Assembly: GCF_007754425.1 (NCBI RefSeq)
Contig: NZ_CP037452.1
Coordinates: forward strand, 6,737,164-6,801,163
Origin: Gimesia fumaroli
GTDB lineage: Bacteria > Planctomycetota > Planctomycetia > Planctomycetales > Planctomycetaceae
Direction of reading: 5' to 3'
DNA: 64,000 nt
Below the pieces are notes generated by a model. The model did not search any database. It was not told the DNA's origin and worked only from the letters and a program-made list of their open reading frames with translations. Position 1 is the stretch's first letter. The number at the start of each line of letters is the position of its first letter. Shown here in pieces: positions 2,414 to 61,883 of this stretch. Position numbers and translations under genes: made by a program.

Positions 2414-2442
2414 TTGATACTTGACAACAAGTAATATATAAT
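2414..2442 (+). promoter_or_regulatory. Sigma-70-type promoter for the DUF1559 gene at 2478
   Basis: TTGATA at 2414-2419 and a perfect TATAAT at 2437-2442 are separated by 17 bp. They lie 36 bp before the ATG of the next gene, in an AT-rich stretch. A nearby TTGACA at 2421 is only 10 bp from the -10 box, so it is not the functional partner. Confidence 0.6.
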
Positions 2443-2477
2443 CTGTTTGAACCGCATTTTAAGTGAGGAGAAGGACA

Positions 2478-3566
2478 ATGAAAACTTTAAGAATCAAACA
2501 AAAGCTGCAACGGCGTAAAGGCTTTACGCTGATCGAACTGCTGGTGGTGATCACCATCATCGGCATCCTGGTTTCGCTGACTCTGCCGGCGATCCAAAGT
2601 GCTCGTGCCTCTGCACGAAAACTGGCCTGTCTGAACAACATGAGAAACGTCGGACTGGCCGTCGTCAACTTCTCATCCGGTGCCAACTCACAGTTGCCAC
2701 TGCTGGTCGATCCGAATATTGAAAATGACGGGACAAATCCAAATGCCGGTTTAGACAACCTTTCCTGGTGTACGACTATTTTACCATTTCTGGATCAGGT
2801 CGGTTTCCGCCAAAGGTGGGATCAAACAGCCAGTGGTGCTGCTTCCGCAACTCCAGTCGCAGGTGCCGCTGCCGCACTGGCTCAATTAAATAACAACCGT
2901 TTTCCAGTCTTCACCTGCCCCGACGATCAGTTCAACACAGATGTAGGAGCTCTGTCTTACGTCGTCAACATCGGCTATGTGACTGCTCTCTATAATACAA
3001 CTGGAGTTGGATACAACCCTGCTGCAGCGGTTGGTTCACAAGGGCACCATCCTGAAGGAGACTATGCACTGGATGGAACTGATGCTTCTGCAACGACCGC
3101 ACCGATTAAATTCGGAACAGGTGTTTTCTGGCGTCCTTCTAGTTCCCGCATGTCACTTGACTTTATCTCCGCCGCTGATGGAATGACCCAGACCCTGATG
3201 TTGACCGAAAATCTTCAAGCAGGTGAATGGTTTGACCAGGATACAGGAAGCCTGGGCTTTGGTATTGATATGCAGGGATTGCCCATGGCAACCGGTTCTC
3301 TGAGATTAGGATCTGCCACTCCTACATTTAACCTGCTAAATAGTGTGTCTGGCAATGATTCTCGCATTGGTTCCAACCTGACTGCAGGAAAAGGACAAGC
3401 TTGGCGTCCCAGCTCGAACCATCCCAGTGGTGCTGTGAATGTGATCTTCTGCGATGGTAGCGGAAAATCGTTAATTCCACAGATGGATGGCGGCATCTAC
3501 GCTCGTCTGTTGACACCCGCCGGTCTGCGATATGGCCAGAACGTTGTAGATGGAACATCCTTCTAA
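2478..3566 (+). CDS. DUF1559 pseudopilin-like protein (first of a tandem pair)
   Basis: The start is ATG 2478, with AGGAG at 2466-2470; the upstream in-frame GTG at 2463 lies on that ribosome binding site. The 362-aa product opens with a basic leader and [16 protein letters not shown], the class III prepilin signal and first helix of the type IV pilin/pseudopilin fold. The DUF1559 body follows and ends with the family's [11 protein letters not shown] segment, equivalent to the usual 'H-x-G-G-x-x-x-x-x-x-DG' end. DUF1559 proteins are greatly expanded in planctomycetes and are thought to be exported through a pseudopilin system; their role is unknown. The protein is about 65-70% identical by eye to the next gene, so they are a recent tandem duplication. 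Confidence 0.85.
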
Positions 3567-3619
3567 GCTGATCGCGATACAGTTTTGAGTCCTTTTCTCA
3601 AAACGGTTCAAACTGACTG

Positions 3620-3651
3620 ACACCAGGGCCTAAGGGTCCTGGTGTTTTTTT
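3620..3651 (+). terminator. Rho-independent terminator
   Basis: An 8-bp perfect stem, ACACCAGG/CCTGGTGT, is followed by seven T. It lies between the two DUF1559 genes and separates their transcripts, unless readthrough occurs. Confidence 0.85.
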
Positions 3652-3677
3652 GCGCTCTTACCATGAGGGAGAATGAG

Positions 3678-4739
3678 ATGCATCAACAACGTACCCCACG
3701 CACGCTACATAATCGAAACGGGTTTTCGCTGCTCGAACTGCTGGTCGTGATCACTATCATCGGCCTATTAGTGGCACTGACTCTGCCAGCCATTAATTCT
3801 ACCAGAAGTCCGTCAAGAAAAGTGTACTGTCTCTATAACATGCGAAACGTTGGCCTGGCCGTTGTCAACTTTTCGTCGGGTGCCAACTCCGAGCTCCCAC
3901 TGCTGGTTGATCCGAACCTCGTCACAGCCCGTGATGGAACCAATGCCAATGCACACAGGGATGATCTCTCCTGGTGCACGAAAATTGTGCCATTCCTGGA
4001 TGCGGTCGAGTTCCGTCAAAAATGGGATGCGACCGCCAGTCTCGCTGCTCAGGAGGGTGCTACGCCGGCGCAAATTCAAGCACTCAAAGATTTGAATGAA
4101 ATCCGGTTTCCCGTATTTATTTGCCCCGATGATCAGTTCAACCTCGATCCGGGGGCACTCTCTTTCGCCGCGAATGTGGGCTACGTCACATCTAATTATA
4201 ATGCGCCAGGAGACATCGGTCATCATCCTGCCAGCCTTGATGGTGGCCTGGATGGAGACCGTTCAACAACCGCTGACATTCCGGTCAAATTCGCTTCGGG
4301 TGTCTTCTGGCGTCCTTATGAATCAAGAATGACGCTGGACTTCATTTCGGAAGCTGACGGATTGACTCACACGCTGATGTTATCGGAAAACTTACAGGCC
4401 GGTGCATGGTCTGATCAGGATACCGGCAATCTGGGCTTCGGCGTCGATATGCAAGGTGTCTATTCCAAGGGATCTACCTCACTGCGTCTCCCTTCCGGAT
4501 TTCAACTCAAAAATCCCATTTCCGGGACAGACTCATCCATTGGCTCAAACCTGACCGCCGCCAAGGGACGAGCCTGGCGGCCCAGTTCCAATCACATCGG
4601 TGGTGCGGCGAATGTGATCTTCTGCGATGGCAGTGGAAAATCTTTGACTCCCCAGATGGATCCCAGCGTTTATTCCCGCCTGTTGACGCCCGCTGGTCAG
4701 CGCTATGGTCAGGCCGCTGTTGATGGATCTTCCTTCTAA
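3678..4739 (+). CDS. DUF1559 pseudopilin-like protein (second of the tandem pair)
   Basis: The start is ATG 3678, chosen because GAGGGAG lies 6-7 bases upstream. The earlier in-frame codons at 3642 and 3663 overlap the previous terminator or the ribosome binding site. The 353-aa product begins with [16 protein letters not shown], a prepilin-type methylation and first-helix segment, and closes with the same [11 protein letters not shown] segment as its neighbour. The two proteins align over their full length, with small insertions or deletions in the loop near residues 120-180. Both lack the EAARR helix continuation of typical DUF1559 proteins, seen in the 21.4 kb and 23.7 kb copies of this window, and have SARASARK or STRSPSRK instead. 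They therefore form a separate subfamily. Confidence 0.85.
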   Translation: MHQQRTPRTLHNRNGFSLLELLVVITIIGLLVALTLPAINSTRSPSRKVYCLYNMRNVGLAVVNFSSGANSELPLLVDPNLVTARDGTNANAHRDDLSWCTKIVPFLDAVEFRQKWDATASLAAQEGATPAQIQALKDLNEIRFPVFICPDDQFNLDPGALSFAANVGYVTSNYNAPGDIGHHPASLDGGLDGDRSTTADIPVKFASGVFWRPYESRMTLDFISEADGLTHTLMLSENLQAGAWSDQDTGNLGFGVDMQGVYSKGSTSLRLPSGFQLKNPISGTDSSIGSNLTAAKGRAWRPSSNHIGGAANVIFCDGSGKSLTPQMDPSVYSRLLTPAGQRYGQAAVDGSSF

Positions 4740-4761
4740 TGAAAACCGTCCCAACGAACGG

Positions 4762-4796
4762 ACACCAGAGAGCGAAAGGTCTCTGGTGTTTTTTTG
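4762..4796 (+). terminator. Rho-independent terminator
   Basis: The stem ACACCAGAGA/TCTCTGGTGT is followed by a T7 run. It closely resembles the terminator after the first DUF1559 gene, as expected if the duplication included the 3' flank. Confidence 0.85.
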
Positions 4797-5177
4797 TGGC
4801 TTCGAATAAGATATGTTTTCTTGTACACTTTTTGCTGCGGTAGAGAGATCCTAAGCTTACTTTTGTAGTACAAAGAAAACCGTTCCCGGAGAGAGAGGAG
4901 ACCTGACTCTGTATAACGTCTCTTGACGAATCACCGGTAAATCGGATAAGGAACGTTATAAAATTAGCAAATCTATGGGAGAGTCGCTTTGCGTCCGGGC
5001 AGGGAGTTCGGGGCAGTGGGTCTCTTCCCGCCTTTCAGGCACCAGAAAATGAGTGAGCTACAGCTTGACTGTCAGTCGCATGACAGCCATAGTCGTGGTT
5101 CAAAAGCAGTAAGAATGAAATCGACTTCACCTCGTGATGAGTCACTAAATATAACCATTACATCTCAGGATACTATC
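4797..5177. other. Leader region before clpP, no gene supported
   Basis: The clpP frame is open back to 4989, but the upstream codons have no ribosome binding site and encode nothing family-like. A TTGACG at 4923 followed 16 bp later by GATAAG is a possible but weak promoter. No RNA structure was recognised. Confidence 0.4.
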
Positions 5178-5813
5178 ATGTTCGACCCCTTATCAGGGCA
5201 GATGCCAACTCAGGCGAACCAGCGTGCCAGAAGTTATTCCCAGCAGCGTCAGATGGGGATTGGTGATCTCCTGCTGGACAACCGGATCATCTTCCTGGAC
5301 AGCGTGATTAATGATGCCAGTGCGAATCTCATCGTGATGAAACTGCTCTATCTGCAGTCTGAAAATCGCCATCAGGACATTCATCTCTACGTCAATTCGC
5401 CCGGCGGTTCCGTGACATCGACGATGGCCATCTACGACACGATGCAGTTCATTGAGTGCGATGTCGCGACCTACTGCGTCGGCCTGGCTGCGAGTGGCGG
5501 TGCGATTCTGGTCGCCGGCGGAGAAAAAGGAAAACGCTATATTCTGCCTCATGCCAAAATGATGATTCACCAGCCTTACGGCGAAGTCGGCGGTCAGGTT
5601 TCGGATATCGAGATTCAGGCCAAAGACATCCTGGATACACGCGAAGTATTGAATAAAATCCTGGCAGACCACACCGGGCAGTCGATCGATCAAATCGCGT
5701 TGGACACATCCCGCGACCGCTTCCTGACTTCGGGACAATCAGTGGAATACGGTCTGGTGGACGAAGTACTGGTCCGAGACAAAGAAGACAAAAATAAAAA
5801 AGAAGAGAAGTAA
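5178..5813 (+). CDS. clpP: ATP-dependent Clp protease proteolytic subunit, paralogue 1
   Basis: This is a serine peptidase of the ClpP family, which forms the barrel that degrades proteins fed in by ClpX or ClpA/C in the cytoplasm. The start is placed at ATG 5178 (AGGA seven bases upstream). This gives a 211-aa protein of family length beginning MFDPLSGQ. The catalytic triad is visible as Ser106 (in AASGG), His131 (in MMIHQP) and Asp180 (in SRDRF). The nucleophile region reads GLAASGGA instead of the usual GQAASMGA. It is followed 74 bp later by a second clpP, so the cell probably assembles mixed or alternative ClpP rings. The Lys/Glu-rich C-terminal tail is short and disordered. Confidence 0.95.
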   Translation: MFDPLSGQMPTQANQRARSYSQQRQMGIGDLLLDNRIIFLDSVINDASANLIVMKLLYLQSENRHQDIHLYVNSPGGSVTSTMAIYDTMQFIECDVATYCVGLAASGGAILVAGGEKGKRYILPHAKMMIHQPYGEVGGQVSDIEIQAKDILDTREVLNKILADHTGQSIDQIALDTSRDRFLTSGQSVEYGLVDEVLVRDKEDKNKKEEK

Positions 5814-5887: not shown

Positions 5888-6493
5888 ATGACGGTCCTTA
5901 CTCCCTATGTGATCGAAAAGAATGGCCGCGATGAACGCGCCATGGATATTTATAGTCGTCTGCTGCAGGATCGCATCGTGATGATGGGATCGCAGGTGAA
6001 TGACCAGGTGGCACAAAGTCTGGTCGCACAACTTTTGTTTCTACAGTTTGATGACCCGGAAGCAGACATCCATTTTTACATTAATTCGCCCGGTGGTTCC
6101 GTCACCGCAGGAATGGCGATTTACGATACGATGCAGTTCATCTCATGTGATGTCGCCACGTATTGTATCGGGCAGGCTGCCAGTATGGGCGCCCTGTTGT
6201 TGACCGCTGGCGCACCGGGGAAACGTAACGCGCTGCCCAACAGTCGTATCATGATCCACCAGCCTTTAGCGGGTATGCAGGGAACGGCGACCGACTTGGA
6301 AATTCATGCCAAAGAAGTGCTCAAAATGAAACGTCGGTTGAACGAGATCCTGCTGCATCATACCGGTCAGACACTGGAAAAGATTGAACAGGATACCGAC
6401 CGCGACAACTTCATGGACTCCGATGAAGCCAAAGCCTACGGATTGATCGATAACGTTTTGGATCACTTCGAAGCCCCCGGAACCAAAGAATAA
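5888..6493 (+). CDS. clpP: ATP-dependent Clp protease proteolytic subunit, paralogue 2
   Basis: This 201-aa ClpP has the canonical nucleophile motif GQAASMGA (Ser99), His124 in IMIHQP, and the Asp of DTDRDNF near 173. It is closer to the common bacterial ClpP than the upstream paralogue. It sits 74 bp downstream of that gene on the same strand, probably in one transcript. The start ATG 5888 has only a weak ribosome binding site. Tandem clpP genes are known in planctomycetes, cyanobacteria and actinobacteria, where the two subunits form hetero-oligomers; whether these two do so is inference. Confidence 0.95.
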
Positions 6494-6549
6494 TCGTAAT
6501 TTGAAAACAGGAGGGCAGAAGAGGACTCTTCTGCTATGATTGATTTCCG

Positions 6550-7374
6550 ATGAAGCAAACTCTTTCGACATGGATGTCGTTATTGTTGGTTCTCACTCTT
6601 TGCGGGTGTGGAGGTCGGGGAAATTCCGATTTGCTGGAAGCCCGACTGCGTCAGCAGGAAGACAGCATTTTTGCTTTGCAGCGCGATTTGAAAGAATCAC
6701 ATCAGGCGCTGGAGACAGCCCGTCATCAGACAGAGGCAATGCAAAAGCAGATTGCGAAAGCATCTAACGGAACCTTGCTCCCAGAACAAACCAAAGCCCT
6801 GTATCAGGTGACTGGCGTCAAAGTCAACAGCCTGCTGACGGGTGGCGTCGACCTGGATAACAAACAAGGCGACGAGCTTTGGACAACCGTGATCACGCCC
6901 CATGATGCGGATGGCGAAACTGTCAAGCTGCCAGCCGACATGGAACTGGAGTTGGTTGACCTGAGCCAGACCGGCGCCAATCGCCGCGTCGGGATCTGGA
7001 ACTTTGACAGCGAAGAAGTCCGCTCTCACTGGTACTCCGGCTTTGCCGGTTCCGGTTTTCGCTTCGAACTCCCCTGGCAAAGACAGCCCTCCAGTGAGGA
7101 TCTGACGTTGGTCGTTCGAATGAAATCACAAGACGGCCGGGTCTTCAACACTCAGTCTCCGCTGAAAATCAGTCAGATTGATCAGCCTCAAAGACCGAAA
7201 GTGGTTCAGGCTTCGCGGGAACGACTGACGCCCGTCGAACCTGCTCGGATCTCATTTGAAGCGGCGCCGGAAATGACCATCGAAGAAAATGAAAACCCGT
7301 TTCAGCCCCTTCCTGCAGAAGCCGCCCCGCAGGAAGAGGAAAATGATTCTCCGTTCCGCGTGATCAAAGAATAG
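6550..7374 (+). CDS. Putative lipoprotein with coiled coil
   Basis: The 274-aa product starts with a hydrophobic signal peptide ending in LTLCGC, a plausible lipobox (Cys about residue 20). A heptad-rich coiled coil rich in Gln/Glu/Lys runs from about 28 to 70. It is followed by a beta-rich region (about 80-200) and an acidic Pro/Glu tail with two NPF-like or SPF-like repeats. No enzyme motif was seen. It probably sits on the outer face of a membrane. It follows clpP by 56 bp on the same strand and ends at a strong terminator, so it may be cotranscribed with the clp genes. The function is unknown. Confidence 0.7.
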   Translation: MKQTLSTWMSLLLVLTLCGCGGRGNSDLLEARLRQQEDSIFALQRDLKESHQALETARHQTEAMQKQIAKASNGTLLPEQTKALYQVTGVKVNSLLTGGVDLDNKQGDELWTTVITPHDADGETVKLPADMELELVDLSQTGANRRVGIWNFDSEEVRSHWYSGFAGSGFRFELPWQRQPSSEDLTLVVRMKSQDGRVFNTQSPLKISQIDQPQRPKVVQASRERLTPVEPARISFEAAPEMTIEENENPFQPLPAEAAPQEEENDSPFRVIKE

Positions 7375-7399
7375 TCTCGTTCACACGAATTCGAATTTC

Positions 7400-7440
7400 A
7401 AAAAAGCTCTCACCTGGAAAACCGGGGGAGAGCTTTTTTA
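7400..7440. terminator. Bidirectional rho-independent terminator
   Basis: The stem AAAAAGCTCTC/GAGAGCTTTTT is flanked by an A run on the left and a T run on the right. It lies between the convergent lipoprotein gene and the TPR gene, so it can serve both. Confidence 0.85.
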
Positions 7441-7508
7441 TTGATCGGATCGGATTTTGAAATGAGCGTATGCGCTCTTTTCATGTGGTTCTTCTGACTT
7501 GAGTCAGG

Positions 7509-7817
7509 CTAATTCATGGAGTTGGATTTCGCCAAGGCATCTTCTGCTTCGGCAATCCGGCCGCATCGCTGGCAGATCACCGAGAGCTGCAGGAAGGAAA
7601 ATTTGTCATCCGGTTCCAATTCGGTCACTTTGGTTGCATGAGCAATGGCTTCGTCAAATCGCCCCAGCTTCTGGTTGTAGACAGCTGAAGCAGAATGTGC
7701 CAGCACATAGTTGTCATCGAGTGCCAGTGCTTCGTTCAGTTTCTCTACAGCTTTTTCAACGTCGCCACTCTCGTAGATTTTGACTGCTTCATCATATAGG
7801 CTTGCAGGGGTACTCAT
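7509..7817 (-). CDS. Small TPR-repeat protein
   Basis: The start is the ATG at 7817 (product MSTPASLYDEAVKIYESGD), giving 102 aa; the longer TTG start at 7844 is less likely. About two and a half tetratricopeptide repeats cover the whole protein, with the A-x-x-x-Y/F-x-x-G-D/R-x-x-E-A pattern at residues 8-35, 40-70 and 75-100. There is no signal peptide, so it is probably a cytoplasmic adaptor. Its partner is not apparent from the neighbours. Confidence 0.8.
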   Translation of the reverse strand: MSTPASLYDEAVKIYESGDVEKAVEKLNEALALDDNYVLAHSASAVYNQKLGRFDEAIAHATKVTELEPDDKFSFLQLSVICQRCGRIAEAEDALAKSNSMN

Positions 7818-8105
7818 CCTCGAAATCTCTCTTTTCTCTCTCAAAATGTCCAGTTGAAGTTTGAGGATATTATTCAGACAACACTGTCATCCTGACAGAA
7901 ATTCTATAACATCACTATTGGAATTATAGTCGCGCGAGACAAATTCCAAACGGCCCATTTCAGCACCGGAGCTGAAATAATTACTGCCTCTATGATATAT
8001 GATAGTTGATCATTTAGACGAAATCATAGGCATCAGCCTCCGGTTCCTGTAGAATTTGTAAACTTCGATTGTCCTCACGAAAACCTGATTTGATGAAAGC
8101 GGGAT

Positions 8106-49110: not shown

Positions 49111-50196
49111 CTACGCCGCTTTGCGATAGAAATAGTTCATCATCCCGCCAAGTCGTTCGCGGCACTCAATCTCACCATCGCTTTGGCCAACTTCCTCTCC
49201 TGGTTCAATGATCTGATGATCAAATCCCTGGTGATTCCGCTCTTTGTGATAATGAATCAAGTACTCCTTCACTGCATTTCTTAATGAGTTCTCACCAAAG
49301 AATATCATTCTGTCGAGGCACTCTGATTTGAGCGAGCGAAAGAAACGCTCAATGAAAGCATTCAGATTAGGAGACCGTGGTGGCAAGACAATCGTCTAAA
49401 TATCTGACTGGTTTAAGATCATTTGAAATGACTCAGAAAATGTCGTATCTCGATCCATGATTAATTTTTGCTTCTCACGCAGGAATCCTTCATCCTCATC
49501 TGTCAGATTTCTGGCAATCTGTTTGATCCATATCTCGTGTGGATTCATCGTACAACCGGCAAATTGCACTCTCCGAGTCTTCAGTTCCATTACAAACAAC
49601 AGATAGAAGGTCACAAGACCACCTTTCGTCCAGACTTCCACTGTGGTGAAGTCGATTGCTGCTAATACCTCCAAGTGGGTCTTAAGGAATGTACTCCATG
49701 TTTTCTGGCGTTTCCGATCAGGTACTGGTTCGATACCCTCCTTTTTGAGAATATTACGTACTGATTCGTCAGAGATTTTGTAGCCCACATTTACGACAGC
49801 GTCAGCGATCCGGTCATATCCCCAGGCAGTATTTTCTTTTGCGATTCGAATCACGAGTTGCTTAATCTCATCAGATAATCTGGGTCTACCTGATTTTCTC
49901 TTGCCTCGATTAGAACAATCCCATTTCATGGTTACCAGCTTTTTATGCCAACGAAGAATGGTATCAGGTGTAAACAAGGTCCCCACTTCCGCAAGTCGCT
50001 TTCGGCCTAAGACCTTTCCTTTAACGGCAAGTCTTCGGCGCTGATCGTCATTTAGTAAAATGCGTTTTTTACCGTGTTTCTCTTTGAGAACCTGACTCTC
50101 AGTTCTCAGGTATTCAATCACATCCTGTTGCTGCTTGTTAACCCAACCCGCGATTATGATGACGAACAGTTGCCAAGGTTGAAGGATGAATTTCAT
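49111..50196 (-). pseudogene. DDE integrase-core transposase, interrupted by an in-frame TAG
   Basis: The frame from ATG 50196 (MKFILQPWQLFVIIIAGW) to 49111 is a single reading frame broken only by TAG at 49396-49398. The N-terminal part has the Arg-rich HTH region (LNDDQRRRLAVKGKVLGRK) and the first two catalytic Asp (AAIDFTTVEVWT, IMDRDTTFSESF). The part after the stop has PPRSPNLNAFIERFFRSLKSE with the catalytic Glu. It belongs to the rve-type planctomycete transposases. Element ends and inverted repeats were not identified. It is a recently inactivated copy or read through at low level. Confidence 0.8.
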
Positions 50197-50347
50197 AGAA
50201 AGCTCATAGGTGTAAAAACAGATTCTGAAAATCCAATGATCGGTCTGGCTCTTTGTAATAACGTAAGGAAGATACCCGTTACGATGTCCTGTCCGTGGAC
50301 GAAAAACCGTTTTATGGAATACAAAAGAAACAGGCAGGTATGGAGCG

Positions 50348-51238
50348 TTATACACGAGGCATTTTCTGGTTATTGATGCTTGGTGCCATTGAGACATCCG
50401 TCTTCTTTCTCGTTTCTTTATCTGTATCGCAGTGCCCCTGTGGCTTTCCAGCTGACGGTTGCAAGGGATTCGGAACCTCAAAGTGTCGGTGATGTGCCGG
50501 GCACATCGCACACGCGGACTCGGCCTTGGTCGCAAAGAACTGCTGCATCTCTTCGTCGGAGCAGGTTGGGTACAGTGGGCGGTAGGCTAAGAACTTATTC
50601 CAGACGTCGCTCAATCCATACTTCTCGTTAACGAGGTGGATGTAGGCCAGTTGCGGACACTTCCAGATTTTCCCCTCGTAGATCTGGGGGCACTGCTTCG
50701 CAACGCAAATTTTATAGCTTTTTTCTGGATCGCCATCATCATAGGGAACCATGTCGCCTCCAAACCCCTCAAACGTAGTACGCCAGGTCTTCGCAGACGC
50801 CCGCATTGTGAGCTTAAACTTGTACTGCTGTTGCCACTGGTCGAGCAGTTCCCGTACCGGTTTCAGCTTTTCGGTGTACTCGGGACCGTCGTGGTGCACC
50901 GAGACGGCTAGATCGCACTGAGTCTGCTGCAAAATTTTTGGCAGGTCGGGATGCTTCTGTAGGAAAAATCCGTTGGTAATTAATCTCAACTGGGTCAATG
51001 GCCACTGCTTGCGGCACTCGCGAACAATCCCGCAGAGTTCTTTATTCAATGTTGGCTCGCCGCCCAGAATGGAAAAGAACTTCGGAGTCATCCGACCGCT
51101 CCACTGCATCATCTGTGAGGTGATATCCGACAGCGAAACATTTTTGCCGACTTTCATATCAGAGAAATGCGAACAACTCTTACAATGCAGGTTGCAGGCA
51201 TAGGTAGCGTGGATCTCTAGATTAGGAATAGCTAACAT
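50348..51238 (-). CDS. Radical SAM protein with C-terminal cysteine-rich (SPASM-like) region
   Basis: The 296-aa protein has the Fe-S-binding CNLHCKSC (Cys15, 19, 22), GGEPTLNKEL (the 'GGE' SAM-binding motif) and LRLITNGF. The C-terminal part has CVAKQCPQI, GKIWKCPQL and CAMCP, a likely auxiliary cluster domain. It belongs to the same minus-strand cluster as the glycosyltransferases and the Fe-S scaffold protein. The last 40 residues are polar and lie next to the transposase remnant, so the natural C-terminus may have been altered by that insertion. The substrate is unknown; oxidation or epimerisation of a sugar is one possibility. Confidence 0.85.
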   Translation of the reverse strand: MLAIPNLEIHATYACNLHCKSCSHFSDMKVGKNVSLSDITSQMMQWSGRMTPKFFSILGGEPTLNKELCGIVRECRKQWPLTQLRLITNGFFLQKHPDLPKILQQTQCDLAVSVHHDGPEYTEKLKPVRELLDQWQQQYKFKLTMRASAKTWRTTFEGFGGDMVPYDDGDPEKSYKICVAKQCPQIYEGKIWKCPQLAYIHLVNEKYGLSDVWNKFLAYRPLYPTCSDEEMQQFFATKAESACAMCPAHHRHFEVPNPLQPSAGKPQGHCDTDKETRKKTDVSMAPSINNQKMPRV

Positions 51239-51345: not shown

Positions 51346-51810
51346 TCATTGCAGCGTATGTATCCTTTCTTTAGACCATTCGATTTCAACGTCTAGATCA
51401 GTCCAGGTACCATCTTCGAATGGCTGGATTAAGTGGTGCTGCCGATCCGTCTCTGTGATTTCAAGCCACTGTTTTTCAAAATTGTGAGAGATTCGGCCCG
51501 TTAGCACATTTGTCTGCAACCACAGTTCGTCGTTCTTGACGTAAAACAAAATGGGTGGATGCGTCGCCATGAATGACGTCGGCTTGTCGAATTGCGGCAC
51601 TTGCCACCAGTCGTGGAACTGCAATACGCAGAGGAACTTACCCGGCGCCGGTCGCTCCATTCTGAATGAATATGCCACGTGTGTTCGGTCGCGTTTGGTC
51701 TGTTCAAACCTGGCCTCTGACCGGCCATTCGAACTATATTCGGCAACCGCTTGTCCGTCCTCAATTCGAATGTTTCCAGTGATGCCGAACAGGATGGGAT
51801 TTGATAGCAT
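51346..51810 (-). CDS. Polysaccharide-lyase-like (jelly-roll) protein
   Basis: The 154-aa protein resembles the PF14099 polysaccharide lyase/heparin lyase I-like fold. The segments VAYSFRMERPAPGKFLCVLQFHDWW (shown here only in part), PPILFYVKNDELWLQ and GTWTDLDVEIEWS parallel the family's 'ilqwH', 'Ppi-l-v-ng-l-l' and 'G-W-d-l-v-v-r-w-S' blocks. There is no signal peptide and it is shorter than typical lyases. Its ATG shares one base with the stop of the sialyltransferase fusion (TAATG), so it is made together with it. A sugar-binding role is as likely as catalysis. Confidence 0.6.
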   Translation of the reverse strand: MLSNPILFGITGNIRIEDGQAVAEYSSNGRSEARFEQTKRDRTHVAYSFRMERPAPGKFLCVLQFHDWWQVPQFDKPTSFMATHPPILFYVKNDELWLQTNVLTGRISHNFEKQWLEITETDRQHHLIQPFEDGTWTDLDVEIEWSKERIHTLQ

Positions 51811-53027
51811 TACTGATCGATCCTTTTAATGTAGCCGTCCGACTCCCACTCATTCAACATTTGCCGCTCGAGTTCGTAGTCATGGTAACTGCTGAATGTT
51901 CTACTTTCGTCGTAATAGTAGCCATTGACAAACTTTTCAGCTGAACCGAAACCGGCTATGTGAATCGGTCCGCCCCAGCGGTCGATCGCATTGGCGATCG
52001 TGTGGACTCCGGTGGTCATACAGGTGGTGCGTCTGCGGTCCTCTCTGAAACGTTCGAATTTTTCCAGGGCACGGCAACCTCCGATCTGAAACACTGTCTT
52101 AGCATTCTGCAGGTGGCTGCACACAGTAGCGTAAAGCGAGTCGTCACCGCAATGCCGCGGCCAGACCTCTACTAATGATGAGCAGTCTCTCGGCCCTGCG
52201 TTTTCAAAGTGATCGACAACCGCCTGAATGCAGACGATCGACCAGTGAGTTGTTTTGCTGCCAACCGACGCCTCGAATCCCTCTGTCAGATAGTGGTTCG
52301 TACGGACCACAACATCGTGATCGTCGATCAGCCAACCAATCTTGCGGTCCTTTAAATTCGAAGCATTGCCCACCACGACAACGTTCGGACGCTCTAAATC
52401 CTCCGGGTAATCAATGTCAACAGTGTCATTCCAGGGAGCTTCGATCAGACTTACATCACCGTGCAGAAGATCTGTATTGCCCTGCACGACGGGATACTTC
52501 ACCCCCATCAACGATCCGGTTCTAAGGTAGTGTGGATCATCGACCAACTCCTGGCTGTACGGCGGCATGCCATCTACGGCCATGGCACGATTGATAATCT
52601 TACCGCGTTGATTACAAACAAATTCAGACGGCAACCTGGCAGCGACAAATACGCTGTCATGCGATTTTAGTTTTTCGACCGCTTCATGCACCTGACCCGG
52701 CCTGCGCAAGGGAGAAGTACAGGGGAGAAAGATCAGATCTGTTTGCAGTTTATCACTCAGCCATTCCGCCAACAGTTGATACTTGAGGTCTGTCATATGC
52801 TCCGGTTCGTCAATCACCCTGGCACCACATCGCTGCGCATAGGCTTTGATCTCAGCATCTTCTGTCGTGACATACGGGATAAACCCCTCGGACAGTGCAT
52901 ACTCGATCGACCACAGCAATAGCGGCTTTCCTCGCCATTCCTGCAGGTTCTTTTTCGGGATGCGGGTGCTGTTGCCCTTTGCCGGTATGATTACCGAGAT
53001 GTCAGACTCTGTGGTTTTTATTGGCAT
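51810..53027 (-). CDS. Bifunctional CMP-sialic-acid-synthetase-like / GT29 sialyltransferase fusion
   Basis: The 405-aa protein has two parts. Residues 10-212 resemble NeuA-type cytidylyltransferases: VIIPAKGNSTRIPKKNL (activated by the Lys/Arg-rich loop), FLPCTSPLRRPGQV and VDIDYPEDLE. Residues 215-395 carry the GT29 sialylmotifs. Motif L is VVVVGNASNLKDRKIG and continues through DDHDVVVRTN, with VGSKTT. Motif S is TTGVHTIANAI and GGPIHIAGF. Motif VS is the H-x4-E of HDYELE (His382, Glu387). It would activate a nonulosonic acid with CTP and transfer it to the glycan made by the neighbouring enzymes. The gene overlaps the upstream one by 26 bp and the next by 1 bp. Confidence 0.85.
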   Translation of the reverse strand: MPIKTTESDISVIIPAKGNSTRIPKKNLQEWRGKPLLLWSIEYALSEGFIPYVTTEDAEIKAYAQRCGARVIDEPEHMTDLKYQLLAEWLSDKLQTDLIFLPCTSPLRRPGQVHEAVEKLKSHDSVFVAARLPSEFVCNQRGKIINRAMAVDGMPPYSQELVDDPHYLRTGSLMGVKYPVVQGNTDLLHGDVSLIEAPWNDTVDIDYPEDLERPNVVVVGNASNLKDRKIGWLIDDHDVVVRTNHYLTEGFEASVGSKTTHWSIVCIQAVVDHFENAGPRDCSSLVEVWPRHCGDDSLYATVCSHLQNAKTVFQIGGCRALEKFERFREDRRRTTCMTTGVHTIANAIDRWGGPIHIAGFGSAEKFVNGYYYDESRTFSSYHDYELERQMLNEWESDGYIKRIDQ

Positions 53028-55143
53028 TGATCACCTCTGTTTCTTTCGAGTCGTTGCGGACTGATTCGCTGTAAAGTCCGCCGTCGTTTTTGTGTGTGGA
53101 CGATTTGAACCAGCCATCGGGATGCGCCACCACAACTGCCATGTAGGAATGCTGATAAATCGCCCGATAGGCGGCGATGTCCTCCATCCCCGGCAAATCG
53201 AAATCAGTCATTGACAGCTTAACATCATCCGTGTGCCACCCCATGACGCCGGTACCAGGCACGTCAATGAAGGTGGTTTCGCGTACTTTCAGTCGGGCAT
53301 CGTAGACTGTTCGATCTTTGTAATAGCTGTCAATAATGCCGGGCTTGAGCTTACTGCCGTGGGCACAGGCGATGCACTTATATTTGTCGATCGCGGAACG
53401 CATCCGCTCGACGTAGTCAGGAGGATAGATCAGATCATCGTCACACGTCAGAATGTACCCGTCAAGGCGATCGGCCCAGAGGAATTTGGTGCAGCTCATC
53501 AGACTATTGTCACCGTGGACCACTTCTATTTTCGGGTTTTTCAAAAACGGGGGAAGAAACTGGTAGTCATTCAGATGTACTTTGATGCCGTCCACCTGGT
53601 CGACCAGCGAAGCGATGGTCTTTTCCAGGGCATAGACTCTCCGGGGGATGCTGGTCAGGCAGGCATAGACCTTGGAATCCCGCGCCGTGCTGATTCGATA
53701 ATCCGAGTCGAGTACGTCCTCCTGGGAGTCGAGTGTGCCGTATTGTCGCGGCTCGATCTTCTCCTGAGTTTTCCATAGTTCGTATCGGCGGATACTCTCT
53801 GCTTTGATTGCATCACGCTCCGGAGATTTGAGACCAAATCGCCCATCCGAGTTTGAAAGGCTGTTGCTACAGACACGGCGGAGAGCTGTTGTCTCACCTG
53901 AGAAGTGGACCGTTTTCTCGAATTCCGCGTTTGCATCACTGGGAAACTGTACCCGCTGAGAAAACTCAGTGTCTGCAGCACAGTGCCAGTTCCCATTAAA
54001 TCCATTCAGCGCCTCGAATGTATCCCGGCGTACAACCATTGTGCCATTCACAAGTCGAGGGTAAGGTAGACCGACATTTTTACCGGAATCGGCGATCGGA
54101 TGATTCTTAGGTAACGCGACATTGCGAGGCAAATGTGACTCCAGGGGGTTCAGGAACTGCGACATAATACTGCCCCATGCCTGCGCATGGTGCTCTTTGA
54201 TATCACTGATAGCAGTTGCAAAATGCCACGGCAGGTAGATGTCGTCACTGTCAGCAATACCAATGAACGCTGTTTTCATGTGATAAAACAGACTATTCGC
54301 GATTGCGTAGGGCCCGCAGTTTCGCTTGGTCTTGTACCAGGCTACGTTATCGAGATGTCTGTAACGTTCAAACAGGGGGCGGTCATCCTCTCGCGAGCAG
54401 TCATTGACCAGGTGGATGAAAGGTTTCACGCCAGCTTGCCAGAGAATCGAATCGATGGTCTGCGGCACCAGCTGCAGGTTTCGAAAATAGGGGACAAATA
54501 TGTCGATGTCATAGTCAGCAGAGACCACCTGTGGACTGCGATGAATCCGCTTTACCGGCTGGGATGAACGAGTCTGGTCCGCTTTTTGAATTGAGCCATC
54601 ACGGTACTGGAAATACAGTGTTCCGGTTTCGGAAAGATCGACTGGGCGACCAATACGAAAGAGGCTCTTGGAATCGTCACTCATCGCTGTATTTCCCAAC
54701 ACCTGCACACTGACATCCAGGTCATAGCTTCGCTGCCAGCGTTCGATGAGTTTCTGGATCTGCCTGTATTTGGCCTGAAAGTCTGGCAGCGTGTTCTGCA
54801 GGTAAATCTCAAGCTGACACCCGGTCAGTTCCAGTAATTCTGCGAGACGTTCGTGCCTCGTTAGCAGATTTCCTTTGAGATTCAGCCGGAGCTGACACTG
54901 ACTCTTTTGAATCTGTTCCCGGGGAAGCCATTTACAAAGCTCGGAATAAACCGTTCGAGACTGGTGGCTGCCCGTTGATTCAGCCCCGGTTTCTCCTCTG
55001 GAAAGACAGGCTATGGATTCGAGCACTTCCACGATCGCTGTAGACAACTCAAGGTCGGCACATCGATCCGATATGTCTTCCGTTTGTCCGGCACGCGGAG
55101 TATCTGGTAGTAAAATTTCTACAGCAAGGCATTCTGCGATCAT
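53002..55143 (-). CDS. Tandem glycosyltransferase with N-terminal degenerate radical-SAM-like domain
   Basis: The start is ATG 55143, overlapping the Fe-S scaffold stop (ATGA), giving 713 aa. Residues about 70-190 align with the middle of the radical SAM protein encoded three genes downstream, but the cysteines are absent: CQLRLNLKGNLLTRHERL against TQLRLITNGFFLQKHPDL, then RWQRSYDLDV against QWQQQYKFKL. A GT2-like domain follows (about 220-450; IDIFVPYFRN, IADSDDIYLPW with a DxD-like motif). The second GT domain has ACLTSIPRRV and TCDDDLIYPPDYVERM (about 505-690). The two catalytic domains probably add two successive sugars. Confidence 0.75.
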   Translation of the reverse strand: MIAECLAVEILLPDTPRAGQTEDISDRCADLELSTAIVEVLESIACLSRGETGAESTGSHQSRTVYSELCKWLPREQIQKSQCQLRLNLKGNLLTRHERLAELLELTGCQLEIYLQNTLPDFQAKYRQIQKLIERWQRSYDLDVSVQVLGNTAMSDDSKSLFRIGRPVDLSETGTLYFQYRDGSIQKADQTRSSQPVKRIHRSPQVVSADYDIDIFVPYFRNLQLVPQTIDSILWQAGVKPFIHLVNDCSREDDRPLFERYRHLDNVAWYKTKRNCGPYAIANSLFYHMKTAFIGIADSDDIYLPWHFATAISDIKEHHAQAWGSIMSQFLNPLESHLPRNVALPKNHPIADSGKNVGLPYPRLVNGTMVVRRDTFEALNGFNGNWHCAADTEFSQRVQFPSDANAEFEKTVHFSGETTALRRVCSNSLSNSDGRFGLKSPERDAIKAESIRRYELWKTQEKIEPRQYGTLDSQEDVLDSDYRISTARDSKVYACLTSIPRRVYALEKTIASLVDQVDGIKVHLNDYQFLPPFLKNPKIEVVHGDNSLMSCTKFLWADRLDGYILTCDDDLIYPPDYVERMRSAIDKYKCIACAHGSKLKPGIIDSYYKDRTVYDARLKVRETTFIDVPGTGVMGWHTDDVKLSMTDFDLPGMEDIAAYRAIYQHSYMAVVVAHPDGWFKSSTHKNDGGLYSESVRNDSKETEVINANKNHRV

Positions 55144-55550
55144 TCGTCTTTGTCTCCTTTCACCTGATGATTCAACTCGGTCAGCATGCTCTGTAAGGCT
55201 TCCCAGGCCAGCAGTCCGCATCGTTTTCTCCGCGGCGATAAAGGAATACGAATCGCCTGCAGCATTGCAGGGGCATCAAACTCCTTCAGAGAAGCAATTT
55301 CCATCCCCGTAATCAGTTCACACAATATGGAGGCAGCAGCCTGACTGATCACGCACCCCTGGGCTTCAAATTTAGCCTGAGTGATCTGGCTGTCTTCAAG
55401 TTGCAGATCAAGTATTACGCAATCACCACAGGTGCGATTCAACAGCGAAAAGCTGACCGTAGGTGATTCCAGTCGTCCCCTGTGGTGTTGAGACTCATAA
55501 TGCGCCCGCAGAAAATCTTCATCATCCAAGTCTGATTCCGGTGTCTCCAT
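55140..55550 (-). CDS. IscU/SufU-type Fe-S cluster scaffold protein
   Basis: The start is ATG 55550, 7 bp after the upstream GT stop, giving 136 aa. Homology begins at residue 12, so the longer frame is rejected. All three scaffold cysteines and the conserved Asp are present: CGD at 41-43 in RTCGDCV, Cys66 in GCVISQAAAS and Cys111 in KRCGLLAWEAL. The pattern is SufU-like. It is embedded between glycosyltransferase genes and overlaps the next one by 4 bp, with no cysteine desulfurase or other suf gene nearby. It may supply clusters to the radical SAM protein of the cluster. Confidence 0.88.
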   Translation of the reverse strand: METPESDLDDEDFLRAHYESQHHRGRLESPTVSFSLLNRTCGDCVILDLQLEDSQITQAKFEAQGCVISQAAASILCELITGMEIASLKEFDAPAMLQAIRIPLSPRRKRCGLLAWEALQSMLTELNHQVKGDKDE

Positions 55551-55557
55551 AGTTTGT

Positions 55558-56301
55558 TTAGCCTTCAACAGGAGCTCCTCTTTCTGATAATGATTCTGGG
55601 GGAATCGTATGCATGACATGCGAAGCCTGACGATGTCCCAGTGCGGAAGCCTGGGGATAGAGGGTGGAAGTTTTGCCGACATGCTGCGCCAGACTGGGAG
55701 AGTGCACAAAGTAAGGCAGATGCTGCCTTTCGCACCAGAGGCCCACGACAGCGTCGATCTGTCTCAAACCCTCTGCGGGTCCAAATCCCCGGTGACTCAA
55801 GACTGCGACATCGCTGAGAAGCAGACGGGCGGAGGGATTAGAGAAGACATAGGCTAATGCCCCCCAGCTATGCCAGCCGCGGTCTTCGCGCACGAAACCG
55901 GGGTCCTGATTTTGCTGATAATGACTGGGGCAATAGATCGAAACGACGCCAATTTCGGCAGCCGGCCACAAATGACATTCCAGATAATCGCGTGTGTTCC
56001 GGGCGAACAGTACATCATCCTGGCAAATCAGATACGCTTCGGATTTCGGATCGCGCAACATCATTTCTGTTAACGACAGATACCAGTTGGGGAAAGCGCC
56101 TAACTGCACCGGACGCTGTGTCGTGATCAAATCAGGATCACCTTCTGGCACCTCAACTCCCGGTTCTGCAAACAGCTGCAACTGTTGCCAGCCGGCCGCT
56201 CTGAGACTGGCAATGGTCTGCTGCAGCGTTGGCTGCGTGCGAGGGGCTGTTGTGATGCCGATAGACCACTGGTTGATATTGCGGTTTGAAAAAGCGTCCA
56301 T
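55558..56301 (-). CDS. GT-A-type glycosyltransferase (uncharacterised)
   Basis: The 247-aa protein opens with IGITTAPRTQPTLQQTIASLRAAG and contains AYLICQDDVLFA (acidic pair in place of DxD), VSIYCPSHY and WHSWGALAYVFS. This layout is of GT-A enzymes related to GT2/GT25-like families. The start ATG 56301 is followed closely by the homologous region also found in the truncated copy at 58922-59107. Gene order and spacing (7 bp to the scaffold gene) put it in the operon. Donor sugar unknown. Confidence 0.72.
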   Translation of the reverse strand: MDAFSNRNINQWSIGITTAPRTQPTLQQTIASLRAAGWQQLQLFAEPGVEVPEGDPDLITTQRPVQLGAFPNWYLSLTEMMLRDPKSEAYLICQDDVLFARNTRDYLECHLWPAAEIGVVSIYCPSHYQQNQDPGFVREDRGWHSWGALAYVFSNPSARLLLSDVAVLSHRGFGPAEGLRQIDAVVGLWCERQHLPYFVHSPSLAQHVGKTSTLYPQASALGHRQASHVMHTIPPESLSERGAPVEG

Positions 56302-57211: not shown

Positions 57212-58795
57212 TCAGATAGTCTTTGCTTTGCAAAGAATTACCAGATGCCCTTCGTGAAGCACCTCCCACCCCCGTTCGCGCAACCACGGTATTGCAAGTT
57301 TACCTCGCCTGCGAGATGTGTCTTTTCGGCAGGGAGTGTCGGCATATGCGATCAGGGAATGATCATGAAGTTTAGGATAAGCTGACTTTAGTTCCTCCAT
57401 ATAATCTTGAGCACAGGGAGAACGGTCAGAATCAATGCTGCCCTGGTACAAGACATCAATACTTCTGTCATCCAGTGAATCTAAGAATGAACACGCATGC
57501 TCATGGTGGACGCAAACGGATTTTTTTAAAAGCTCCCTCCACAAATTTGCGAATTTACAACTCCATTCACTCAGGGTGACGGATTCAACCCGCCCTCCAT
57601 ATTTAGAGCAGAATGCGCCGAATAAATAAGTGGAAAATGTAGCCCCTTCCCAATTCTCTTTGGGCTTGATCATGCCAGTCTCTACAATCACAGGGGCTTC
57701 AAAATGCTTTACGATTTCCTCGAACAGCAAATCAAAACCCTGATGGTTATCTTGATGGCCAAACACTCTCTGGTCATGTTCTTCTACAATTTTCTGAAGT
57801 TGAACATCGGCTCCAATCAGGCTTTTTGTTAAATAACGAGGTTTTTCAAGCATCCGCACAGATAGATCGGCCAGTATGCCAGGTTCGTGTTCGGAACCAG
57901 TTGTCTGTTCGACGATATTAAAAGGCGTTCGGAGCTGCCTGGTTTTGTTCTTACCAGCTAATGCCCGAATGACAGTATGAAGAGTGCGTTCTCTCGGTAG
58001 TGTGAAGTGTGAAGGAAAATGATGCGTCCATATTCCGATTGCTGGAGTGTTTGTATAACGCGTCAAATGTAATGGACCGCTATCAATTCCGATTAATAGA
58101 TCTGACATAGTCATAAGTGTCAAAAGTTCCTCAGTATTTAAACAACGTAAGTCATCAGTCAGATGTCGGACACGCTTATTACTGGTACGTGGGACACGGT
58201 TATCCCAATCCAGAAGGATGATAGTCCCAGACGTACGATCTAAAAGCTGTTGATACAACTCAACTGTAATTTCTGGTGAAATGTTTTTTCGCCTGGGAAG
58301 CGAATTCCCCATCGTATGCAGCAAAATGAGTGGTCTGGGTAGTTCTTCTATGAGTAAACGGACTTCTGCCCGTGATTTGTCAGAAAGAAAAGGTTCGATG
58401 TTTAATTGTATGGCACAATATTCATCCCATAACTCGTCGGGCTCCCCAATTTCAGGCATTGGTTGACGGCTGAGATTCATTCCCGCTTTATTATTTGACC
58501 AAGGGTGCAATTGATCTATTCGCGGTGGGTGTTTCCATGGATGGCGTTGAACATGATTCTGATTGGTTGTGATAATCTCTAAACCGGTTGGCTTATACAA
58601 AATGTGTTTGTCAGGTCGGCAACGGATTTTGAGTTTATGACCACGTTTCGCATAGAGCGGAAGTGAGTGAGCAAAATAAACACTATCTCCCAAACCATGA
58701 AAAAACTTCACTGGTCTGGATTCATTTGGATCAGGATTCGCATGGGCGTCCCGCCTTCTTGGTGTTTGCAAAATATCTTTATTCATCTCATTCAA
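57212..58795 (-). CDS. GT9-like glycosyltransferase fused to a methyltransferase-like domain
   Basis: The 527-aa protein starts at TTG 58795 (CAGG upstream; ATG 58786 is an alternative). Residues 25-330 resemble GT9 heptosyltransferases, with FHGLGDSVYFAHSLPLYAKRG and SDLLIGIDSGPLHLTRYTNTPAIGIW (the donor-binding 'D-S-G-P-x-H' motif). Residues about 365-527 resemble a class I SAM-binding fold: VIVETGMIK, GATFSTYLFGAF, GGRVESVTLSEWSCKFA and SIDVLYQGS, as in the Methyltransf_24 group. The fusion would couple addition of a sugar to O-methylation or to recognition of the acceptor. Confidence 0.78.
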   Translation of the reverse strand: MNEMNKDILQTPRRRDAHANPDPNESRPVKFFHGLGDSVYFAHSLPLYAKRGHKLKIRCRPDKHILYKPTGLEIITTNQNHVQRHPWKHPPRIDQLHPWSNNKAGMNLSRQPMPEIGEPDELWDEYCAIQLNIEPFLSDKSRAEVRLLIEELPRPLILLHTMGNSLPRRKNISPEITVELYQQLLDRTSGTIILLDWDNRVPRTSNKRVRHLTDDLRCLNTEELLTLMTMSDLLIGIDSGPLHLTRYTNTPAIGIWTHHFPSHFTLPRERTLHTVIRALAGKNKTRQLRTPFNIVEQTTGSEHEPGILADLSVRMLEKPRYLTKSLIGADVQLQKIVEEHDQRVFGHQDNHQGFDLLFEEIVKHFEAPVIVETGMIKPKENWEGATFSTYLFGAFCSKYGGRVESVTLSEWSCKFANLWRELLKKSVCVHHEHACSFLDSLDDRSIDVLYQGSIDSDRSPCAQDYMEELKSAYPKLHDHSLIAYADTPCRKDTSRRRGKLAIPWLRERGWEVLHEGHLVILCKAKTI

Positions 58796-60359: not shown

Positions 60360-61883
60360 CCAATCCTGTTCGGCCCGGCAGTTGCTCACGGCGTTTGATT
60401 TTTGGATCAGGGCCTTGAGTGATTGTAAAATCTGCGGAGTGGCAATGCGAGCACTCGCTCTCAGATAAATCGGCGCAGCGTGAAGTAAGGCAGACGAGAC
60501 GTACCGACGGCCCGTGTTTCAGTCGTTCTGTTTTTGCAACCGGGAGATGTGCGCCAGCAGTTCTTCCTCGTCACACATGCCGGTGAAATACCAGCAGATC
60601 ATTTCATAGGTGCGTAACGACGGTTTGCGACCCGTCCACAGACTGATCAGCATGCAGGCGATGATCGCGCAGTAAGTCTGAATCTCGATGCCGTTTTGCG
60701 ATCTGCTCAACAGGTGACGACAGCCCAGCATATGCTTGAAGAAACGGAAGAAGATTTCAATTGTCCAACGATAACGATACATCAGCGCAATGATTTCAGC
60801 GGGAACGTCCAGCAGATTGGTCGCGATCCGCAACACGCCATCGCAGTTAGGCCCCGTGCTCTTGCCGCCATAGCGAGTTCGCTTCTGATGTGGTTCCATC
60901 TCGATCTGAATCAACCGGAGCTGATGATTGGGTTTTGATTTCGCTTGAGTTGATCCCAGTTGAATGATCTCATCACTCATGACGTGAGCGGCCCTGTCTG
61001 CGTCTGTCAGTTCCTGCTCTGATAGAACGTCGTAGACACTGTTGTCACGAATCCGGCAGACGTAGCTGCTGCCAGATTCGACAATCTGATTAAAGAGTTC
61101 GAATTTCGCGTAACCGCGATCCATCACATATGTGCGGTCCGATTCAACGGCGCGGTCCAGCACGGCTCGTTCGTCGAATTCTCCTCCGCCGGTGGGAGTG
61201 ACGTCGATTCGTGTCGGCACGTGGCAGTCCACTTCAAAGTGCGTATGCAGCGTCCAGTTCATCAGGTTGGAATGACCGGATTGTGTTTCGAGAAATGAAG
61301 CCTGGGCGATGCGGGGCAACGCGGTAATTACGGTTCCATCAACCAGGGTCATCGTATGCTTGATGTCCTGCAGTCGGCTGTCTTTCGCAATTGGCGCCAG
61401 CTTGTCACCCAGGGTGGCGATGATCGGCTTCAGTCGTTCCGAATCGAAGACAGCCACGGATTCAGAGAGCGAGCCAAGAGAAGCGCGGGGGCACTTCAGT
61501 TTTTTCTGGACCTTTTTGAGTTCACTGGCCTGCTGCAGACCGCGTAGAGACGTCACAATGGGATTAAAAAGATAGAGCAGGATCATCGTGCAATACTGAT
61601 CCATGTGCAGACTGCGATTGCCAGCGCGGTCACGTTCACAGCCGACGTCATGCAGTTCCTGCAGCAGGCTTCCCAACTGTCGGAAATACTTCAGGCCGGT
61701 GATTTCCTGTTCTTTAATCTTGGCGCGCTTCGTTCGTGGCATGACAGAAGTCTCAAACAGTCAACGCGCCTTCCTGTGTGCAGATTGACCAATTTACAAA
61801 CCACGAACGGCACGAATTACACGAAAACTCCCTGTTCGCAGTGATTTTTAAAAGGTAGCATAAACTGTGCCGAACAGGATTGG
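60360..61883. mobile_element. IS4-family insertion sequence, complete, 1524 bp
   Basis: The element is bounded by perfect 15-bp terminal inverted repeats: CCAATCCTGTTCGGC at 60360-60374 and its reverse complement GCCGAACAGGATTGG at 61869-61883. A 7-bp target duplication, TCCTGAC, flanks it at 60353-60359 and 61884-61890. It encodes one intact transposase on the minus strand. Intact ends, intact gene and identical target copies indicate a recent insertion. Confidence 0.9.
60519..61742 (-). CDS. IS4-family transposase
   Basis: The 407-aa DDE transposase has D1 in TLVDGTVI, D2 in YVMDRGYAKF and the IS4 signature Y-x2-R-x3-E-x6-K in YRYRWTIEIFFRFFKH. It starts at ATG 61742 and has no frameshift. 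It cuts and moves the surrounding 1524-bp element. The C-terminal HISRLQKQND is polar. Confidence 0.95.
   Translation of the reverse strand: MPRTKRAKIKEQEITGLKYFRQLGSLLQELHDVGCERDRAGNRSLHMDQYCTMILLYLFNPIVTSLRGLQQASELKKVQKKLKCPRASLGSLSESVAVFDSERLKPIIATLGDKLAPIAKDSRLQDIKHTMTLVDGTVITALPRIAQASFLETQSGHSNLMNWTLHTHFEVDCHVPTRIDVTPTGGGEFDERAVLDRAVESDRTYVMDRGYAKFELFNQIVESGSSYVCRIRDNSVYDVLSEQELTDADRAAHVMSDEIIQLGSTQAKSKPNHQLRLIQIEMEPHQKRTRYGGKSTGPNCDGVLRIATNLLDVPAEIIALMYRYRWTIEIFFRFFKHMLGCRHLLSRSQNGIEIQTYCAIIACMLISLWTGRKPSLRTYEMICWYFTGMCDEEELLAHISRLQKQND

Follow-up and report, generated by a model that had tools for sequence, protein, structure and literature searches.

Engineered fusions of a cytidine monophosphate (CMP)-N-acetylneuraminic acid (Neu5Ac) synthetase with a sialyltransferase place activation and transfer on one chain, but they are man-made and their transferase belongs to a family other than GT29. 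The cgtA/neuA1 product of Campylobacter jejuni is a single fused protein in which the donor of CgtA is uridine diphosphate-N-acetylgalactosamine (UDP-GalNAc) and the two halves use different sugar nucleotides. Here, we examined a gene of Gimesia fumaroli that joins a NeuA-like cytidylyltransferase to a sialyltransferase-type domain of the GT29 family. It lies on the minus strand at positions 51810–53027 of a 64,000-nucleotide stretch (contig NZ_CP037452.1, positions 6,737,164–6,801,163), which is referred to in full as the window. Apart from this candidate, we know of no natural fusion in which both halves share one CMP sugar.

Bacterial GT29 enzymes have been reported in Proteobacteria, where their function was not predictable from phylogenetic trees, and the eukaryotic GT29 enzymes have been traced to bacterial ones (Petit et al. 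2018, PMC5811610). The initial annotation, which called GT29 chiefly eukaryotic with scattered bacterial members, gave the right family label, but the family is not purely eukaryotic as bacterial members were already in print. The bacterial enzymes have motifs L, S, III and VS, as the fusion does; planctomycetes are not mentioned in the main text of that paper, and no joined cytidylyltransferase appears in those passages of it that were considered (PMC5811610). In C. jejuni, the name of a single gene, cgtA/neuA1 (orf5/10), covers both a glycosyltransferase and NeuA (PMC7248181, PMC3397941), but its transferase is an N-acetylgalactosaminyltransferase, unlike that of the GT29 fusion (PMC7248181). 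The crov266 product of Cafeteria roenbergensis virus also has two domains with a NeuA-like N-terminal half, but its C-terminal half is annotated as a methyltransferase (PMC9614988). The parts (a bacterial GT29, and a gene combining NeuA with a glycosyltransferase) are known in print, but the natural combination of GT29 with a cytidylyltransferase was not found in the open-access literature searched.

A genuine two-domain gene

The gene and its two domains are as follows.

51810–53027, minus strand: fusion gene, cytidylyltransferase plus GT29, 405 amino acids, ATG start, single open frame
52389–53003, minus strand: N-terminal domain resembling CMP-ulosonate synthetases, residues 9–213 (Pfam CTP_transf_3 and a model of residues 1–214)
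51813–52388, minus strand: C-terminal GT29 domain, residues 214–405 (Pfam, sequence matches in the PDB and fold match)

Both halves scored above the curated cut-offs of their Pfam families. For CTP_transf_3, the match covers residues 12–77 (38.6 bits, cut-off 22.6, E 1.3e-9); for Glyco_transf_29, it covers residues 217–395 (70.8 bits, cut-off 23, E 1.6e-19). The description in the initial annotation of one 405-residue chain with two halves was thus upheld, with no frameshift. A sequence search of the PDB retrieved NeuA and KdsB chains with the N-terminal half, and ST3Gal1, ST6Gal1, ST6GalNAc2 and ST8SiaIII with the C-terminal half.

A full-length copy of the fusion, 62% identical over 398 columns with two gaps, was found in a second species of the genus (genome G013, a single contig). 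This copy is 410 amino acids long when counted from a TTG start and 417 from stop to stop. As G013 carries the same two-domain gene beside related genes, a frameshift artefact is excluded. It is extremely improbable that two genes were joined through a sequencing or assembly error or that a domain match arose by chance, given the single open frame and the 62%-identical fusion in the one-contig genome of another species, and the two-domain fusion is genuine. The number of non-synonymous changes per site (dN, NG86 method) between the window and G013 copies was 0.366 for the N-terminal half and 0.288 for the C-terminal half, with gapped codon columns dropped, which suggests that both halves diverge at similar rates; the synonymous equivalent (dS) was saturated, so that no dN/dS ratio is possible. 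The GC content of the fusion (0.515) compared with that of the window (0.490) gave no hint of recent foreign origin, though this is a weak test. No signal peptide or membrane anchor was seen by eye at the N-terminal end of the protein and, because of this, the enzyme should be cytosolic.

The GT29 half

The sialylmotifs, which are named as in PMC5811610 and PMC10225777, are located as follows.

52239–52379, minus strand: sialylmotif L, residues 217–263 (alignment to ST3Gal1 and GT29 alignment A3)
51972–52016, minus strand: sialylmotif S, residues 338–352 (TTGVHTIANAIDRWG; alignment A3)
51909–51920, minus strand: motif III, residues 370–373, Y370-Y371-Y372-D373 (YYYD; alignment A3)
51867–51884, minus strand: sialylmotif VS, H382 to E387 (alignment A3)

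All four motifs and the predicted catalytic base, H382, are retained in the window fusion. Motifs L, S and VS are at the places claimed in the initial annotation, and motif III, recognized by what we take to be its pattern, is present as well. H382 and E387 of VS were invariant in all seven rows of A3, which holds GT29 sequences from cellular genomes. In a wider set (A7), the VS histidine was counted by eye in 12 of 16 rows. Because it is missing from the other four, all from viral contigs, some of the viral-contig relatives probably lack activity of the usual kind. A cysteine pair in motifs L and S has been described for vertebrate sialyltransferases (PMC10225777). The motif L cysteine is missing from the window fusion, in which the motif begins RPNVVVVGNASN. 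To our knowledge, this pair is not a feature of the whole GT29 family, and a cytosolic enzyme would have no need of it.

A model of the whole chain (predicted local distance difference test score, pLDDT, 68.7; predicted template modelling score, pTM, 0.66) was compared with solved structures using Foldseek. It matched solved sialyltransferases, the best being ST8SiaIII (E 3.6e-8, template modelling (TM) score 0.49 on the target). The same model also matched the CMP-Kdn synthetase 9t4z (E 1.3e-7). It is not a reliable guide to how the two domains are placed relative to each other. The rows supplied for it were 18 of 24 relatives kept by a script for aligning on the proper half, which favours a two-domain result, and the model is not independent evidence of one. 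One alignment (A5) was dropped as cytidylyltransferase rows had been misaligned onto the GT29 half.

The activating half

The relevant positions in the N-terminal half were identified in an alignment of 20 sequences, in which columns were assigned by motif; the meningococcal sequence was not among the rows.

52947–52985, minus strand: residues 15–27 (PAKGNSTRIPKKN), which we take to be the loop that binds cytidine triphosphate (CTP) (alignment of 20)
52722–52724, minus strand: P102, at the place of meningococcal Gln104 (Q in G013; alignment of 20, role from PMC2901514)
52554–52556, minus strand: S158, at the place of the carboxylate-binding meningococcal Arg165 (place assigned by motif)
52410–52418, minus strand: D204-I205-D206, where the meningococcal enzyme has the pair that binds Mg2+ (alignment of 20; PMC2901514)

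K26 and D206 were found in all 20 rows and N27 in 19, and D204, N27, T104 and P106 are kept in both fusions. In the meningococcal CMP-Neu5Ac synthetase, the metal is held by Asp209 and Asp211, Arg165 forms a salt bridge to the sugar carboxylate and the R165A mutant is dead, while the changes Q104L, Q104E and Q104N lowered kcat/Km by 200- to 47,000-fold (PMC2901514). The fold, CTP loop and metal aspartates are common to the N-terminal half of the fusion and the single-domain NeuA, LegF and PseF. The fusions differ from single-domain CMP-nonulosonate synthetases at the place of Arg165 in both copies, at that of Gln104 in the window copy, and in having GT29 directly C-terminal. R147 of the window protein, which the G013 copy has too, is a candidate for the residue that stands in for Arg165.

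A separate model of residues 1–214 (pLDDT 83.6, pTM 0.82) was nearest to synthetases of CMP-Kdn, CMP-Pse5Ac7Ac and CMP-Neu5Ac (TM 0.72–0.77 and root mean square deviation 5.1–6.4 among the best ten matches), with the CMP-Kdn synthetase 9t4z as the best match. In a tree of the activating half, the two fusions occupied their own long branch with no supported neighbour.

Nonulosonate genes in the genome

The initial annotation left the sugar open and suggested a search of the genome for neuB, neuC and pseudaminic acid genes. In the 7.70-Mb single contig, neuB was found at 2.48 Mb, with the fusion at 6.79 Mb. It is part of a leg-type cluster at approximately 2.476–2.483 Mb, in which genes for a LegF-like protein, legC, a neuD-type gene, neuB/legI, neuC/legG, a CBS-nucleotidyltransferase and a legB-type gene lie side by side. 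Four of the products scored above the cut-off, namely LegC (504.9 bits, cut-off 420), NeuC/LegG (476.1, cut-off 235.9), NeuB/LegI (498.2, cut-off 399.65) and the NeuD-type protein (217.1, cut-off 160.8). The LegB-type dehydratase had LegB as its best match but reached 458.4 bits against a cut-off of 475. The LegF-like cytidylyltransferase scored 160.4 bits against the PseF cut-off of 205.7 with no model named LegF appearing, and the CBS-nucleotidyltransferase fell under all of the cut-offs shown, with no model named PtmE appearing. The names LegF and PtmE are presumptive, given in part from gene place. Matching leg-type frames were read by eye in the same order in G013; the genes beside the LegF-like frame were inspected in these two genomes.

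A further weak NeuB match (C1:5021801, 37.8 bits) lies in a frame read by eye as a 3-deoxy-D-arabino-heptulosonate 7-phosphate (DAHP) synthase and was rejected, leaving a count of one true neuB. KdsB is present. No PseB above the cut-off was found in the genome (best 177.1 bits, cut-off 407.75), and PseC and PseG were not searched genome-wide. With the chromosomal leg-type cluster present and PseB under its cut-off, a legionaminic-type sugar is probably the most available nonulosonate, and 3-deoxy-D-manno-oct-2-ulosonic acid (Kdo) is the next candidate. The search recovered neuB and neuC, and the leg-type cluster narrows the choice of sugar, with a legionaminic-type one favoured.

Proposed function and alternative explanations

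We give an approximately even chance to the fusion being a cytosolic bifunctional enzyme that would activate a sugar and then transfer it, with a legionaminic-type nonulosonate or a derivative of one as the most likely sugar. In this scheme, in which the two activities, the identity of the sugar and of its acceptor, the place of the glycan at the surface and any channelling are inferred, the N-terminal half would use CTP and Mg2+ to convert a 2-keto-3-deoxy sugar acid to its CMP ester. The GT29 half, with H382, would take that CMP sugar as donor, and the sugar would be added to a surface glycan under assembly by the gene cluster around the fusion (GT2, radical S-adenosylmethionine (SAM), sulfotransferase and GT9-type genes). 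The donor would be a legionaminic-type nonulosonate from the chromosomal leg-type cluster, or a derivative that is poorly handled by the separate LegF-like enzyme. A fuller account, which we hold to be possible but somewhat short of even, is that this is a natural single-chain enzyme feeding a labile CMP sugar directly to its own transferase, that the sugar is not Neu5Ac but another ulosonic acid (likely of legionaminic type), and that the enzyme is gained or lost as one gene within a planctomycete glycan cluster.

If this is true, the fusion would be a candidate GT29-type legionaminyltransferase. Such enzymes are poorly known, and a ready-made one-pot enzyme would be a useful tool. A 2021 paper reportedly names Maf4 in its title as a putative legionaminyltransferase. 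As of 2020, according to the relevant passages of one paper, no bacterial enzyme had been reported that moves legionaminic acid to the cell surface (PMC7439481). Where a bacterial GT29 is joined to its own activating enzyme, the architecture would also point to the class of donor, which could then be put to the test.

Several observations weigh against the proposed two-step enzyme for a legionaminic-type sugar. In the alignment of 20, the column of Arg165 contains Ser in both fusions and Arg in 15 of the 18 other rows; PseF has Ser, KdsB has Thr and one viral-contig row has Gln. The column of Gln104 contains Pro in the window copy and Gln in that of G013, as well as in 15 of the 18 others, the remaining three having Glu (Halorussus), Tyr (PseF) and Arg (one viral-contig row). 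The activating half has thus kept its nucleotide and metal site while its sugar site is changed, which would fit either a different sugar or the onset of decay in the window copy. Among NCBIfam models, this half matched PseF (TIGR03584) best but with only 54.1 bits, under the cut-off of 205.7, and it reached 22.6 bits with KdsB (TIGR00466), under the cut-off of 155.2. The window genome already has a separate LegF-like gene and KdsB. Among 17 genomes of the genus, a LegF-like frame was found in 14 and the fusion in two, and there is no co-occurrence pointing to a legionaminic acid donor. Finally, no NeuB match was found in G207, a genome of the same family with GT29 alone, and G227, which is of the same class, has only a weak one (30.3 bits).

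Both fusions have lost the Arg165 equivalent, and the window copy has lost that of Gln104 as well. Together with the separate LegF-like gene in the window genome and G013 and a CTP_transf_3 match that spans only residues 12–77, these losses could indicate instead that the N-terminal half is degenerate. It would then bind nucleotide or CMP sugar, hold a partner enzyme, or merely stabilize a GT29 half that uses the CMP sugar of the LegF-like enzyme. We consider this rather unlikely, as the metal aspartates and CTP loop that are kept would hardly be needed by a non-catalytic domain, and the N-terminal half is not diverging much faster than its partner. The PseF used for comparison also has Ser at the place of Arg165 and a residue other than Gln at that of Gln104; that PseF has an Arg one residue before the Arg165 column, a position occupied by Tyr or Phe in the fusions. 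A two-step enzyme acting on Kdo or another amino-free ulosonic acid, rather than on a legionaminic-type sugar, is distinctly unlikely, even though KdsB in the genome makes a Kdo pool likely and the best fold match of the N-terminal half is a CMP-Kdn synthetase. Plant GT29 proteins reportedly turn up in papers on putative enzymes of rhamnogalacturonan II. However, PseF gave the N-terminal half a higher score (54.1 bits) than any of five KdsB-type models (22.6–33.3 bits), the tree of this half gives no supported neighbour, and the genome already has KdsB.

Genetic context

The genes closest to the fusion are as follows.

53002–55221, minus strand: GT2-family glycosyltransferase, 739 amino acids, the end of which overlaps the start of the fusion by 26 bases
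51346–51810, minus strand: polysaccharide-lyase-like protein, 154 amino acids (PF14099, 30.3 bits, cut-off 29.9), sharing one base with the stop of the fusion
50348–51238, minus strand: radical SAM protein, a relative of which directly adjoins the fusion in G013
55140–55709, minus strand: SufU/NifU-like iron-sulfur protein, with a relative in G069
55558–56301, minus strand: unnamed protein of 247 amino acids, related to proteins in the clusters of G013 and G069

Upstream of the fusion, beyond the GT2 gene, are the SufU-like gene, the unnamed gene, a sulfotransferase gene and two GT9-type genes, one of them at 57212–58795. The true start of the SufU-like gene is probably downstream of the listed TTG, and its product, as an iron-sulfur scaffold encoded within the glycan cluster, may support the radical SAM protein encoded there. 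In G013, the order is GT2, fusion, radical SAM, and the lyase-like gene is absent. A related cluster with the same order, but with the fusion absent, was found in a third species of the genus (G069). The proteins are 90% (GT9-type), 76% (unnamed), 64% (SufU-like), 57% (GT2), 32% (lyase-like) and 68% (radical SAM) identical to those in the window, and nothing in this cluster matched the sulfotransferase or the GT9-type protein encoded at 57212–58795. No GT29 was found anywhere in the G069 genome at the threshold used. The first ATG of the G069 lyase-like frame is at the spot at the end of the GT2 gene that holds the ATG of the fusion in the window. The related operon of G069 does without the fusion, which is thus an accessory step within a conserved glycan cluster.

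In another genome (G104, locus L082, 8724–10532), a frame of 603 amino acids contains GT2 and radical SAM domains related to the two separate neighbours of the fusion, and this joined frame suggests that the GT2 and radical SAM proteins work together. Residues ~90–178 of the window GT2 protein (53002–55221) show weak similarity (27% identity, E 1e-8 in a small set) to the cluster's radical SAM protein, and the GT2 protein may be a glycosyltransferase fused to a radical SAM stretch that has decayed. Transposase genes flank the glycan cluster, one of the integrase type at 49111–50535 (read by eye) and one of the IS4 family at 60519–61742.

Distribution of the fusion and of GT29

The two of 17 genus genomes with a full-length fusion are the window's own and G013. 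Twelve others matched by the LegF-like frame only, and three had no match at E 1e-5. In overlapping draws, GT29 was found in four of 248 genomes of the class, four of 392 of the phylum and five of 170 of the family. Among 385 genomes of the class to which G702 belongs, one had it, and G702 itself matched only at E 2.1e-5. None of 14 control genomes had a match above the cut-off. Both profiles were run on all ten of the different GT29 genomes encountered, and in two of them GT29 is joined to a cytidylyltransferase; as both fusions were in the alignment behind the cytidylyltransferase profile, a very distant domain could escape it.

A search of genome contigs with the single fusion protein returned no further fusion, and one with alignment A1 returned three loci, two of them on G207 and G227 contigs, none of which is fused. 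The same alignment retrieved seven GT29 loci from viral contigs, none joined to a cytidylyltransferase. In plasmids, tblastn with the whole fusion matched 62 records but none covers 80% of the query, and the GT29 half had no match in phages or plasmids. One look-alike, from a Pseudorhodobacter plasmid (H1, query residues 11–249), was rejected as its cytidylyltransferase is joined to a weakly HAD-like half (16.9 bits, cut-off 20.9) rather than to GT29.

Other arrangements of related genes were seen in these searches. A contig filed as viral (L051, IMGVR_UViG_3300035698_015077) contains seven GT29-like frames within 5.8 kb (3–5776), with other genes between them. The frames were found with an in-house profile, the first is cut by the locus edge, and the one tested against Pfam scored 27.4 bits (cut-off 23). 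They are followed at 6451–7969 by a cytidylyltransferase gene (Pfam 61.7 bits, cut-off 22.6) and then a NeuB-like gene (175.8 bits, under the cut-off of 399.65), and the locus resembles a gene set that would produce, activate and perhaps also transfer a sugar similar to sialic acid. In Sinorhizobium meliloti pSymB (L061, 2995–6642), genes annotated as a cytidylyltransferase, an N-acetylneuraminate synthase family protein and neuC are followed by a gene of the alpha-2,8-polysialyltransferase family. On a further viral contig (L057, 3284–4498), a chain of 405 amino acids joins GT8 (92.9 bits) to GT29 (44.8 bits).

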